Origin: Candidatus Buchananbacteria bacterium
Lineage (GTDB): Bacteria > Patescibacteriota > Patescibacteriia > 2-01-FULL-39-33
NCBI GenBank assembly: GCA_030650095.1
Contig: JAUSEE010000060.1
Span: 1-46,147, forward strand
DNA: 46,147 nt
Reading direction: 5' to 3'
In this document: positions 4,172 to 35,138 of the stretch, piece by piece
Layout of the letters: the number at the start of each line of letters is the position of its first letter
Position numbering within the stretch: position 1 is the first letter of the stretch
The notes under the pieces: model-generated
What the model saw: the letters and a program-made list of their open reading frames with translations, nothing else
What the model was told of the DNA's origin: nothing
Databases searched by the model: none
Position numbers and translations under genes: made by a program

Positions 4172-4405
4172 ATGAAGGTGATTGATGAGAAAATTTGGTG
4201 GGAGTTTGTTTGTAGGGCCTGTGGATCTACGTGCCAAGCTGAACCGGAAGACGTCACATCCAGACCCAATACAGACTGCGACGGAGATGTCGTTGGACAT
4301 ATCTGCGTTGTGGAATGTGGGAAGTGTGGTGCGCAGCATGATGTACCGACGCGCAAAGTGACTGAGAAAATTGAGGGAATCGCAGCACGAAAGCGCAAAC
4401 GCTAG
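4172..4405 (+). CDS. Small zinc-ribbon-like protein, 77 aa
   Basis: CRAC...C...CGKC cysteine pattern; SD-like AAGGAGG upstream (4157-4163); promoter upstream. Confidence 0.65.
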   Translation: MKVIDEKIWWEFVCRACGSTCQAEPEDVTSRPNTDCDGDVVGHICVVECGKCGAQHDVPTRKVTEKIEGIAARKRKR

Positions 4406-17242: not shown

Positions 17243-17385
17243 GTCATCCCGAGCGTAGCCGAGCTTGACTGCCGGCTAGGCAATGGATCCATTTTTATTT
17301 GTCATTGCGAGGTACGAAGCAATCTCATATATTAAACCATAAGATTGCCACGTCGTCCGCTAAAAAGCGGACTCCTCGCAATGAC
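17243..17385. repeat. Composite interspersed palindromic repeats (GTCATCCCGAGCG... plus GTCATTGCGAGGTACGAAGCAATC...CTCGCAATGAC)
   Basis: Same family as 9485-9585. Confidence 0.8.
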
Positions 17386-17457
17386 AAAAAAGTTTATCCC
17401 AAAAAATAATAGATGAACAAAACTTAAACTATGTGATTTAAAATAATACAAAAATCA

Positions 17458-17485
17458 TTGACTTTTTAGTTAAAAGTTTTATAAT
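17458..17485 (+). promoter_or_regulatory. Strong sigma70-type promoter TTGACT-N16-TATAAT
   Basis: Read directly; 20 nt upstream of a structured RNA element. Confidence 0.65.
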
Positions 17486-17504
17486 ATAAGAGCAATTCAA
17501 AAAC

Positions 17505-17589
17505 GCCCGGGTGGATTGAATACGACCTAAAGGAGTATTCAATGGGTGGCAAAAGCCACCCCGGTATCAACCGGGCAACAGTTTTTTAA
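17505..17589 (+). ncRNA. Candidate structured leader RNA with embedded 15-codon ORF (17542-17589, MGGKSHPGINRATVF)
   Basis: Outer stem GCCCGG(17505-17510)/CCGGGC(17571-17576); ATTGAATAC/GTATTCAAT (17515-17523/17535-17543); GGGTGGC-aaaa-GCCACCC (17544-17561). Confidence 0.5.
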
Positions 17590-17601
17590 ATTATAAAATA
17601 A

Positions 17602-17686
17602 GCCCGGGTGGTGAAATTGGTATACACGCTTGCCTTAGGAGCAAGTGCCGCAAGGCATGAGAGTTCGAGTCTCTCCTCGGGCACCA
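17602..17686 (+). tRNA. tRNA-Leu(TAG), CCA encoded
   Basis: Acceptor GCCCGGG/CTCGGGC, anticodon arm CTTGC-CTTAGGA-GCAAG, long variable arm, T-arm GTTCGAGTC. Confidence 0.95.
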
Positions 17687-19397: not shown

Positions 19398-20269
19398 AAC
19401 TCCTAAAGTTGGGGCGAGCAAGCAGATTGCTAATCATACTTTGGGAATTAAAAATCAGTTGCCCGAATTAATAACTCATCTAAGTTATAACTTGAGAAGC
19501 GCAACTAATCTACCCAGGGGAACTTTGAAAATTCATCAAGTAAATTCAACAATCATAAAAAAAGCAATTTCATACACATTTTGAGGTAGTTACAAAACTA
19601 TCTCAATATAATATAATTTATAATCACAATTCTTGTGATTAAGCATATTTAAGTGCAGTTGGTGGATGCCTAGACATTAAAAGACGATGAAGGACGTAGC
19701 AGCCTGCGAAAAGCCTCGGTAAGGTGGCAAGCAACCTTTGACCCGGGGATATCCGAATGGGGAAACCCATCTAGTTGAAGACTAGATATCCGTGCCTGAA
19801 TACATAGGGTATCGGAAGACGACCCAGCGAAGTGAAACATCTCAGTAGCTGGAGGAAAAGAAAATAATAAATGCCTACAGATTTATCTTCTCTCATTTAT
19901 GAGAGGAAATAAATCTGCGGGTTGTATTCCGTTAGTAGTGGCGAGCGAAAGCGGAGCAGTCCAAACCTATTTCAGTGTTGTATCAGTTTGGTGAAGTTCT
20001 CACGAATGGATCTAAGCTGGTACTTAAAGATACATGTCGTTGCTGTTAAGGGGTTATAGATAATTACGTTTGTCAGCATGTAGTGGCAAGGTAGAGAAGA
20101 TATGACTTCCCTAGTGGAGTGGTCCTGGAAAGGCCAACCAAAGCGGGTGAAAGTCCCATACGCGAAAGGGGTTATATCTCTACGGTTTTTATCTCGAGTA
20201 CCACGGGACTCGTGAAATCCTGTGGGAATTTGTCGTGACTATGCGATAAGACTAAATACTTTTAATGAT

Positions 20270-20308
<39 letters not shown>

Positions 20309-20899
20309 GGCCGGTAAGGCCGATGAAATAGTATCTGAAACCAATTGCATACAATGAGTTGGAGCTCAAGTGTCCCGATTTATCGGGGATTACTGGGTGA
20401 CAGCGTTCCTATTGAAGAATGAGCCAACGAGTTTGTTCTACGTTGCTTGTTTAATCCCGCAAAGGGAGAAGGCAAAGTGAAAGCGAGGCTTAATAGGCCG
20501 ATTTATAGCAGCGTGGACAAGACCCGAAACCGGGTGACCTAACCATGACCAGGGTGAACCAGGTGTAACAACCTGGGGAAGCCCGAACCCACGAGCCGTG
20601 CAACAGTCGGGGATGAGTTGTGGTTAGCGGAGAAATTCCAATCGAACTCGGTAATAGCTGGTTCTCCTCGAAATAGCTTTAGGGCTAGCTTTAAGATTAG
20701 ACTCAGGGGTAGAGCACTGAATGAGAACAGGTCCGTAAGGTTACTGTTTTCAATCAAACTCCGAATACTGAGTATCCGTATCTTAAAAGTCAGACTATGG
20801 GGGCTAAGCTCCATCAGTCAAAAGGGAAACAGCCCAGATCACAATCTAAGGTCCCTAAATCCATGTTAAGTGTAGAAGGTGGTATTATAACAATGACAA

Positions 20900-20930
<31 letters not shown>

Positions 20931-21029
20931 TAAAGATAGCGTAACAGCTCACTGGTCAAGTCGTTTTGCGCCTAAAATGTTCGGGGCTAAACATGGTACC
21001 GAAGATGTGGAACCAGTGCTATGCACTGG

Positions 21030-21109
21030 AAATTCTAAATCTAAAATCTAAAATACCAAATATTTTTTAAATAAAAAAATTGGAAATTGGAAATTGGAAA
21101 TTGGAAATT
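21030..21109 (+). repeat. Tandem-repeat insertion within 23S rRNA: (TTGGAAA)x4 at 21080-21107 plus TCTAAA-type repeats
   Basis: Read directly between hairpins CCAGTGctatGCACTGG and CCAGCGCgtaGCGCTGG. Confidence 0.8.
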
Positions 21110-21856
21110 CCAGCGCGTAGCGCTGGTTGGTAGAGGAGTATTCCAACTGGAATGAAGTCGGACCCGCGAGGGCCGGTGGACTGGTTGGAAGTAAGAATGT
21201 TGGCATGAGTAGCAAAAATCAGGGTGAGAGTCCCTGACACCGTAAGTCCAAGGTTTCCTGGGTAACGAGAATCGACCCAGGGTTAGTCGGTCCTAAGGCG
21301 AGGCTGAAAGGCGTAGTCGATGGACAAGCTGGTTAATATTCCAGCACTACCTTAATTTTCCGATGGGGGGACACATTAGCAGAGGTTGAGCGTTTTTTGG
21401 CTATAGGCGTTGCTGGTCTAAGATGTGATAGATAGGTAAATCCGTTTATCATTAGCATCTAAATTGGCAGAAGAGAAAACCGCAAGGTGGACTCAATTCA
21501 ATTAAAGTTGGTGTCAAGAAAAACCTCTAGGGTTAAGATTAAGGTATCCGTACTGCAAACCGACTCAGGTGGACGAGGCGAGTAGCCTCAGGTGTACGAG
21601 AGAAACATTGTTCAGGACCTCGGCAAAATAGCGACCGTAACTTCGGGATAAGGTCTGCCTGTCGCAAGATAGGCCGCAGCTAAAGATGCCAAGCGACTGT
21701 TTACCAAAAACACAGGTCTCTGCTAAACCGTAAGGTGATGTATAGGGGCTGATGCCTGGCCAGTGTCTGAACGTTAAGGGGAGGGGTTAGCCGCAAGGTG
21801 AAGCCTTGAACCGAAGCGCAGATGAACGCCGGCGGTAACTATAACCGTCCTAAGGT

Positions 21857-22564
21857 TTTGTACTTATTTAATTATGAGTACAGAAGGACTGGGACGGTTA
21901 TAATAGATTCGTTGCCTCTTATTACAGTAATGTAATAGTGGTCCTAAAACACTTAGCTATATGCTGGAAAGCTGGCAGATTAATATTATTCTATGGTATA
22001 ACAGTACCATAGATAAAAATAAAATCATGTCAGACAATCAGCAGGAAAGACTAAGGATCGATAATTGGATAGCGGGATTCACTGATGGAGAAGGATGTTT
22101 CTCTGTTAGTATTATAAAAAATTCAACTACCAAATCAGGCTGGCAAATATTCCCAGAATTTGTAATAACGCAAGGTGAGAAAAGTTTACCCATACTTGAA
22201 ACAATTAAAAAACGTTTTAAGTGCGGTAAAATTTATGTCAATCGTCGAAAAGATAACCATAAAGAAAACTTGCACCGTTATTGCGTTAGATCAATTGGGG
22301 AATTGTCAGATATTATTATTCCATTTTTCATCAAGAATAAACTAAGAACAGCTAAAGCTGATGATTTTAAAAAATTTACCAGAATAATCAATAAAATAAA
22401 AAATCATAAGCATTTAACTGCCAAGGGGATGAGAGATATTGCTCGGATAATCGAGCAAATGAATCGTAAAAGACCTGCTAGATTCTTAGAATCCTCAGAG
22501 ACTACACGCTAAGCGCCTGTAATCCACAGGCTGAAGATATAGTCCAAAGCATAAAGGATGCTAG
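21857..22564 (+). other. Group I intron in 23S rRNA at the conserved TAACTATAAC(C/G)GTCCTAAGG^TAGCGAAATTCC region
   Basis: Exon sequence interrupted at CCTAAGGT/AGCGAAATT; group I core motif AAGATATAGTCC (22533-22544); exon-complementary GACGGTTAT near the intron 5' end; boundaries approximate by a few nt. Confidence 0.87.
22027..22512 (+). CDS. LAGLIDADG homing endonuclease, intron-encoded (start may be 21961)
   Basis: WIAGFTDGEGCFSVSI motif; location within the group I intron. Confidence 0.92.
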   Translation: MSDNQQERLRIDNWIAGFTDGEGCFSVSIIKNSTTKSGWQIFPEFVITQGEKSLPILETIKKRFKCGKIYVNRRKDNHKENLHRYCVRSIGELSDIIIPFFIKNKLRTAKADDFKKFTRIINKIKNHKHLTAKGMRDIARIIEQMNRKRPARFLESSETTR

Positions 22565-22603
<39 letters not shown>

Positions 22604-23179
22604 TGGCATAACGACTTGGCAACTGTCTTAACAATGTACTCGGCGAAATTGCAATTGTCGTGAAGATGCGACATACCCATAGTTAGACGAAAAGACCCCG
22701 TGAAGCTTTACTACAACTTGGTACTGAATTATGTTATTGCATGTTTAGAATAGGTGGGAGCCGTAAGGCGCCAGTGAAATACCACCCTTGTTCTATTGTA
22801 ATTCTAACCTACTCCCATGAATCTGGGAGAGGGACAGTATCTGGTGGGTAGTTTAACTGGGGCGGTTGCCTCCCAAAATGTAACGGAGGCGTTTACAAAG
22901 GTTGGCTAACTCCGGATGGAAATCGGAGTGATAGTGTAAAGGCACAAGCCAGCTTTACTGCAAGACCAGCAAGTCGAGCAGTTACGAAAGTAGAACTTAG
23001 TGATCCGACCGTACGAAATAGGACGGCGGAAGCTCATCGGATAAAAGCTACTCCGGGGATAACAGGCTAGTCTCCTCCAAGAGTCCACATCGACGAGGAG
23101 GTTCGGCACCTCGATGTCGGCCCGTCCTATCCTGGAGCTGAAGAAGGTTCCAAGGGTTTGGCTGTTCGCCAATTAAAAG

Positions 23180-23223
<44 letters not shown>

Positions 23224-23521
23224 CTATCTACTATGGGCGTTGAAATTTGAGAGGGCCGTTTCCTAGTACGAGAGGACCGGAAACGACTGACCTCTGGTGT
23301 ACCAGCTGTTCTGCCAAGGGCATCGCTGGGTAGCTAAGTCGGGTTAGGATAAACGCTGAAAGCATATAAGCGTGAAGCCGTCCTCAAGATAAGATTTCAT
23401 TAAGACCGCTTGTAGATGACAAGCTTGATAGGCTCCAGGTGTAAGTGTAGTAATACATTCAGCCGAGGAGTACTAATGGTTTACGTATGTTTAATCACAA
23501 GAATTGGATTATAATTTAGGG

Positions 23522-33618: not shown

Positions 33619-33686
33619 CTTTATTTTTTTAATCTTTTATAAATAACTGTTAAGAGTCAATAGTTAACTGCTAATGGTTATTATGG

Positions 33687-33850
33687 TGCACACTGAGGGA
33701 TTTACGCATCGTTTAGCCGGCTGAAACCGGCTAAACTCTTTGTCCTCAGTAGAGCCAGAAGCTCCTGTTGGTCGCTTCTGTCTACGCTCGATTATTTCAC
33801 CTCGTCTTCCGACTCGGCTTATATCTCGCTCCTACTGGTTCGAATCCCTA
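33687..33850. repeat. Palindrome-rich element bounded by tRNA-like T-arm fragments
   Basis: tgcacactgagggatt at the left resembles the tRNA-Val 3' end; ggttcgaatccct at the right; internal TTTAGCCGG/CCGGCTAAA and AGAAGC/GCTTCT. Confidence 0.5.
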
Positions 33851-34587: not shown

Positions 34588-34631
34588 ACTAGAGATGATG
34601 GCTTATGCAAATATAAGCCATCATCTCTAGT
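34588..34631. repeat. Perfect 19-bp stem hairpin abutting the tRNA-Leu(TAA) 3' end
   Basis: ACTAGAGATGATGGCTTAT-gcaaat-ATAAGCCATCATCTCTAGT. Confidence 0.92.
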
Positions 34632-34715
34632 GCCCAAGGCGGGACTCGAACCCGCACGGAGTATTAATCCAAAGGATTTTAAGTCCTTCGTGTCTACCAG
34701 TTCCACCACCTGGGC
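34631..34715 (-). tRNA. tRNA-Leu(TAA)
   Basis: Acceptor GCCCAGG/CTTGGGC; anticodon arm AAGGA-CTTAAAA-TCCTT; long variable arm. Confidence 0.94.
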
Positions 34716-34721
34716 CCATAT

Positions 34722-34793
34722 AACAATAAACAATTAACTTTTAACAGTTAACAGTTAATAAAATCTAATTAGCTGTGTTAATTGTTTATTGTT
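34722..34793. repeat. 17-bp perfect inverted repeat AACAATAAACAATTAAC ... GTTAATTGTTTATTGTT
   Basis: Read directly; fills the tRNA-Leu/tRNA-Gly spacer. Confidence 0.9.
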
Positions 34794-34801
34794 TTTATCG
34801 G

Positions 34802-34875: not shown

Positions 34876-35138
34876 ATGTATATCTTCTAAACAACTAAAC
34901 TATAAATAAAAATATCTTAGTCCAACCTGCGGTTGGATCGTTCTATCCTGGGTTGGCGTCCAATCTGCCACCGGCAGATTGTTCGGCGCTCAACTTCGCC
35001 TCGCTTTAAGCTCGGCTTGTTTTACTGCCAACCCGTCTCGGCTAACAGCCTCGACCCAACTGCCCGCCTCGCGTCGACAAGCGACAGCGAGTCGAGGCGG
35101 GAACTACCGCCGCATGTATACCTTCTAAACAACTAAAC
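34863..35138. repeat. Direct-repeat-flanked structured insertion at the tRNA-Gly 5' end
   Basis: 38-bp repeats at 34863-34900 and 35101-35138 (one mismatch), separated by 200 bp of nested palindromes. Confidence 0.85.

Follow-up and report, generated by a model that had tools for sequence, protein, structure and literature searches.

The window examined here is the entire 46,147-nt stretch of contig JAUSEE010000060.1, part of the 1.16-Mb genome of a Candidatus Buchananbacteria bacterium, and the subject of our analysis is a compact three-stem leader between a promoter and the gene for tRNA-Leu(TAG). The original prediction, made from the letters of the window, had described it as a regulatory RNA with a buried Shine–Dalgarno (SD) sequence and a 15-codon open reading frame (ORF). 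All of the parts it listed (promoter, three stems, buried SD, ATG, a 10-nt 5' end shared with the tRNA and a 97-nt spacing) are present, and the locus is arranged as follows.

17458–17485, plus strand: sigma-70-type promoter TTGACT-N16-TATAAT, matching the consensus at 11 of 12 positions and read as the ancestral promoter of tRNA-Leu
17505–17514, plus strand: first tRNA 5'-end copy, GCCCGGGTGG, at the ancestral spacing from the promoter
17505–17510, plus strand: 5' strand of stem P1, GCCCGG, within the first GCCCGGGTGG copy
17515–17543, plus strand: P2 hairpin (H_C), ATTGAATAC-GACCTAAAGGA-GTATTCAAT, with arms at 17515–17523 and 17535–17543 and an 11-nt loop, recognized by a match to covariance model R1 (see below) and by covariation
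17544–17561, plus strand: P3 hairpin, GGGTGGC-AAAA-GCCACCC, with arms at 17544–17550 and 17555–17561 and the loop AAAA, recognized by fold and covariation
17562–17570, plus strand: linker, CGGTATCAA, of which CGG or a close variant is seen again in relatives
17571–17576, plus strand: 3' strand of P1, CCGGGC, an inverted tRNA 5'-end copy, recognized by fold, covariation and pairing with the tRNA
17577–17601, plus strand: element tail, AACAGTTTTTTAAATTATAAAATAA, shorter than the tails of relatives
17602–17686, plus strand: intact tRNA-Leu(TAG), beginning with the second 10-nt copy of the direct repeat

The SD-like AAAGGAG lies at 17529–17535 and the ATG at 17542–17544. The window contains GCCCGGGTGG at two positions only, 17505 and 17602, so that the tRNA starts 97 nt downstream of the first base of the leader. 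The fold of 17505–17590 reached −37.7 kcal/mol, in comparison to −21.3 ± 3.3 kcal/mol for shuffled sequences (z = −4.92; none of 200 shuffles was equal), and this, with the covariation in all three stems and the relatives in other genomes described below, marks a genuine structured element, as had been supposed. No Rfam family reached its gathering threshold with the leader, and a permissive search was likewise empty; the best sub-threshold match by E-value was HgcG, which scored 15.6 bits where 77 are required. These searches agree with the earlier statement that the leader could not be matched to a known riboswitch or ribozyme class. A group I intron, a hammerhead ribozyme and an integron attC site were dropped by eye, as their core motifs are lacking.

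In another genome of the same genus (G002, PEZY01000008.1), a promoter identical in kind, TTGACT...TATAAT, stands immediately ahead of tRNA-Leu(TAG), with about 18 nt between them and no leader. The tRNA gene there is identical to that of the window over 83 of 83 nt and is flanked by the same two ORFs. By this comparison, the first GCCCGGGTGG of the window is spaced from the promoter as in the ancestral arrangement, and the start of the intact tRNA follows 97 nt later. As judged from the two sequences, the window holds an apparent insertion after tRNA nucleotide 10 (...GGGTGG), with the tRNA 5' end repeated over 10 bp at its borders. Since the promoter leads directly to the tRNA in G002 and the first GCCCGGGTGG keeps its ancestral distance, a target duplication is the best explanation for the shared 5' end. 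This lay beyond the view of the original prediction, in which the 10-nt repeat could not be recognized as flanking an insertion that is missing in the sister species.

The reciprocal case was also found. G002 carries a copy of the leader type (L089) ahead of tRNA-Leu(TAA), and no leader-type element was found ahead of the tRNA-Leu(TAA) of the window (34630–34715; 34630–34800 examined). A third genome of the genus, G001, has another, independent insertion at the tRNA-Leu(TAG) gene, after a 24-nt tRNA 5' fragment (L084, about 4200–4290), which gave no match to the leader model R3 (introduced below) and is not of the leader type. The tRNA-Leu(TAG) gene is therefore a repeated target.

Relatives of the leader were collected with two covariance models, R2, built from the window leader alone, and R3, refined from 11 copies; the window copy is the seed of both, so its own match is by construction, model E-values are rough, and all counts of copies and genomes are among the matches listed. 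Model R2 revealed relatives in 10 other genomes of the class (best E 4e-15), and R3 added four more strong copies in 2 genomes outside the class, three of the four in one genome. Their layout is constant: a tRNA 5' fragment with TGG or the like at its end, P2, P3 (GGGTNGC-AAAA-GCNACCC), the CGG linker, their own tRNA 5' end copied in inverted orientation, a T-run, GAYYGAGGC-N3-GCCGAG and the intact tRNA. In 10 of the 14 copies the intact tRNA lies 21–38 nt downstream on the same strand, and all of these are Ser or Leu tRNAs. The direct repeats are 8–44 nt long, have no mismatch and end exactly at the insertion point; the corresponding place in the intact tRNA lies 114–116 nt from this point in seven of ten copies and 97 nt from it in the window.

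The original prediction had proposed a search for compensatory changes in a covariance model of relatives, and such changes were found: among 14 sequences, 19 of the 22 pairs, distributed over all three stems, change on both sides, far above slid controls (the alignment was fitted to the model, and shuffles ignore relatedness), and the peptide is not conserved. Nearly every copy opens with a copy of the 5' end of its own tRNA and bears the complementary strand. For the 3' strand of P1, the best pairing partner is the tRNA of the same copy (sum −206.9, in comparison to −146.6 ± 9.9 on permutation; 0 of 200,000 permutations), and the link formerly drawn between CCGGGC and the tRNA 5' end has thus proved specific. 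The alternative description as a tRNA-derived structured RNA applies to P1, while P2 and P3 are hairpins of the element itself.

In the tail, the T-run with GAYYGAGGC-N3-GCCGAG is present in most relatives, being common and not universal (L096 is without it); in the window copy the conserved GAYYGAGGC-N3-GCCGAG is absent and the T-run alone is kept. In several relatives the tail sets a TTGAYY box about 17–18 nt ahead of an A+T-rich stretch at the tRNA start, most clearly in L089 (TTGATT-N18-TATAAT), and from these motifs it appears that the tail may re-supply a promoter. L093, L098, L099 and L104 have a further GAGGC-N3-GCCGAG, or a variant of it, on the 5' side of the first tRNA fragment, a sign that one and the same tRNA may have received several insertions or undergone tandem duplication.

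Plain DNA similarity searches of the own, family and class genomes returned the leader itself and only one weak hairpin match, 24 nt of P2 in G009, and the latter led to tRNA-adjoining elements in the same genomes. Elements of the 3' type consist of the tRNA, often a terminator, an inverted T-arm copy (GGGATTCGAAC), GGGCAG, a variable hairpin, GAGCG, H_C, CTGCCC, AGGACAAG and the copied tRNA 3' end, in some cases together with the terminator (L061, L070, L075). Model R1, a covariance model of H_C, was built from 11 elements of this wider family with the leader excluded. H_C covaries in nine of ten pairs (score 0.54, in comparison to ≤0.09 when slid). R1 matches were found in 71 of 381 genomes of the class and in 7 of 192 genomes across the phylum, own genome included, and 24 of the 30 best class loci have a tRNA gene within 140 nt (hand count). 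In the window, a training member ranked first and P2 of the leader second (21.9 bits, E 5e-5), and the next match had E 0.08. R1 aligns to the leader over positions 10–34 of the 51 of the model only, and the leader is without the full core GGGCAG...GAGCG-H_C-CTGCCC-AGGACAAG. Going by these sequence features, the leader is classed as a related sub-type of the wider H_C family and not as a full-core member, the link between the two types resting on H_C. Two further elements of the window belong here.

33684–33849, minus strand: related element after tRNA-Val, with an inverted T-arm copy, a core with H_C (33739–33789) and a tRNA 3'-end copy, recognized by R1 and by eye
34942–35113, minus strand: probable related element before tRNA-Gly, with a tRNA-Gly 5' fragment holding hairpin insert(s) and a core ending in CCCAGGA, recognized by eye, with a weak R1 match of 9.5 bits

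Based on these results, we consider it likely that the leader is a small, non-autonomous, protein-free mobile element that inserted into tRNA-Leu(TAG) and duplicated the 5' end of its target. What carries this reading is an insertion seen against an empty site, a duplication, a conserved three-stem fold, a P1 specific to its tRNA and many tRNA-linked relatives. Presence and absence at orthologous tRNAs of sister species, together with the many different tRNAs involved, are more easily reconciled with an insertion element than with a regulator of a single tRNA. The element family is apparently undescribed, a provisional statement; no description of such elements was found in the open-access literature. 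Phage records gave short chance matches only, and the exact hairpin was not found in IMG/VR.

In the proposed scenario, the element would have landed after ...GGGTGG, at tRNA position 10, and the duplicated tRNA 5' end would have left an intact tRNA gene downstream. The resulting three-way junction would consist of P1, in which the duplicated tRNA 5' end pairs with the inverted copy in the element, and of the conserved hairpins P2 and P3 of the element itself. Because no copy examined contains a gene, mobilization is presumed to occur in trans, by an enzyme that would recognize P2/P3, as single-stranded DNA (ssDNA) or RNA, and act at TGG in tRNA 5' regions. Transcription would start from the old tRNA promoter, and RNase P would then remove the leader. 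The complement to the own tRNA could arise by inverted copying at insertion, by base-paired target choice or by later co-evolution. A more specific version, which as a whole we regard as rather unlikely, would make the tRNA-complementary strand a guide: RNA- or ssDNA-guided mini-elements would locate tRNA genes through base pairing, with the tRNA 5' end in the leader type and with the T-arm in the 3' type, the tRNA would be rebuilt by target duplication, and the enzyme would be one not yet known in Patescibacteria.

Several points weigh against mobility. It is deduced from presence and absence, and no mobilizing gene was found. Element-bearing genomes show no enrichment of Y1_Tnp (33 of 71, in comparison to 184 of 381 overall; hand count), and G002 bears elements without a Y1_Tnp match; mobilization by a Y1/REP system was dropped for lack of association between Y1_Tnp and element-bearing genomes. 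The duplication in the window is just 10 nt and the tail has diverged, so this copy may be old or shortened. Selection for function could also maintain the complementarity to the tRNA, and it is formally conceivable that G002 lost an old leader instead of the window gaining one.

The strongest functional alternative is a cis-acting leader RNA that controls tRNA maturation, in which CCGGGC would alternate between its own 5' copy, so that the acceptor of the tRNA stays free, and the 5' strand of the tRNA proper, so that the tRNA misfolds and RNase P is blocked, perhaps with attenuation at the U-run. The fold is conserved and P1 is complementary to its own tRNA in distant genomes, the leader lies on the same strand just 5' of the tRNA, and a U-run follows P1 in most copies, all as such a leader would have it. 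However, presence varies at orthologous tRNAs inside one genus; the copies occur at Leu, Ser and one Ile tRNA; the direct repeats of up to 44 nt resemble insertion scars; insertions of the related hairpin family lie after tRNAs as well, with 3'-end copies; and the U-run begins several nt beyond the stem. We therefore consider this explanation unlikely, although a mild or secondary effect on tRNA processing via the alternative pairing of CCGGGC is possible.

Control through a leader peptide, with translation of MGGKSHPGINRATVF from the buried SD, is very improbable. An ATG follows the loop in only 2 of the 14 copies (the window and L090) and is missing from the other 12, so the 15-codon ORF shows no conservation, and the loops are variations on GACC..GGA, the common hairpin motif of the wider insertion family, to which the SD-like sequence belongs. 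AAAGGAG is admittedly well spaced from the ATG in the window copy, and L090 has its ATG at the same place. With the tRNAs unrelated and orthologues empty as well, the leader is probably not the translation- or charging-sensitive switch of the original prediction. Least probable of all, to the point of being nearly negligible, is a hairpin formed by chance or a single rearrangement of the tRNA gene, with template switching that copied the 5' end in both directions. In the window, P1 and P3 do largely resemble sense or inverted tRNA 5' sequence and the duplication is short, but relatives in distant genomes share P2, P3, the linker and the length with different tRNA sequences.

If the leader is such a mobile element, it represents a family of tiny structured elements, spread through the phylum, that enter essential tRNA genes yet leave these intact, in the strongly reduced genomes of the ultra-small Patescibacteria. 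The complement to the own tRNA in nearly every copy makes the mechanism of target choice testable. The elements would also explain partial tRNA genes and odd leaders that are liable to misannotation or to misreading as regulatory RNAs.

Some other features of the region were recorded. Just 5' of the tRNA-Leu promoter, at 17300–17386, lies a 13-bp perfect inverted repeat, TGTCATTGCGAGG...CCTCGCAATGACA, with the look of a miniature inverted-repeat transposable element (MITE); in G002 the spacer at this position is shorter and the repeat is absent. A 346-aa ORF near the leader has its closest named relatives in metagenome-assembled genomes of Candidatus Buchananbacteria, and a 58%-identical homologue of it occurs on a contig titled Nanoarchaeota (L087, JAUSIT010000007.1), which points to horizontal transfer or misbinning. 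Elsewhere in the window, a 183-aa ORF with resemblance to LAGLIDADG homing endonucleases (21961–22512, plus strand) lies inside a 23S rRNA match (19639–23496) that exceeds the Rfam model by about 900 nt; the 23S gene therefore probably holds an intron.

Among known systems, repetitive extragenic palindromes (REPs) and REPINs, mobilized by RAYT transposases (TnpA-REP, Y1 HUH), are alike in being short, gene-free, dispersed hairpin DNA units thought to be moved in trans. The elements described here differ in that they sit in tRNA genes, duplicate their target and bear its complement, and Y1_Tnp is not enriched with them; REPs have a GTAG-type foot, which is not a common feature of our elements. 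MITEs are likewise small, gene-free, non-autonomous insertions with target duplication, but in our elements no terminal inverted repeats of DDE transposons were seen, the duplications are long and variable (8–44 nt), and one strand is complementary to the target. Islands of tyrosine recombinases also insert at tRNA genes, leaving an intact tRNA and a partial copy, whereas our elements are about 100 nt long without integrase or cargo and, since each copy matches its own tRNA, have no fixed attachment (att) core. In group I and II introns a strand of the element pairs with the target flanking the insertion point (internal guide or exon-binding sequence pairing with the exon); here there is no intron core and no Rfam match, and the tRNA is restored by duplication, not by any evident splicing. 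Finally, T-box and other tRNA-related leader RNAs are structured leaders with tRNA complementarity, whereas ours, also without an Rfam match, precede tRNA genes, not mRNAs, and are complementary to the tRNA 5' end.
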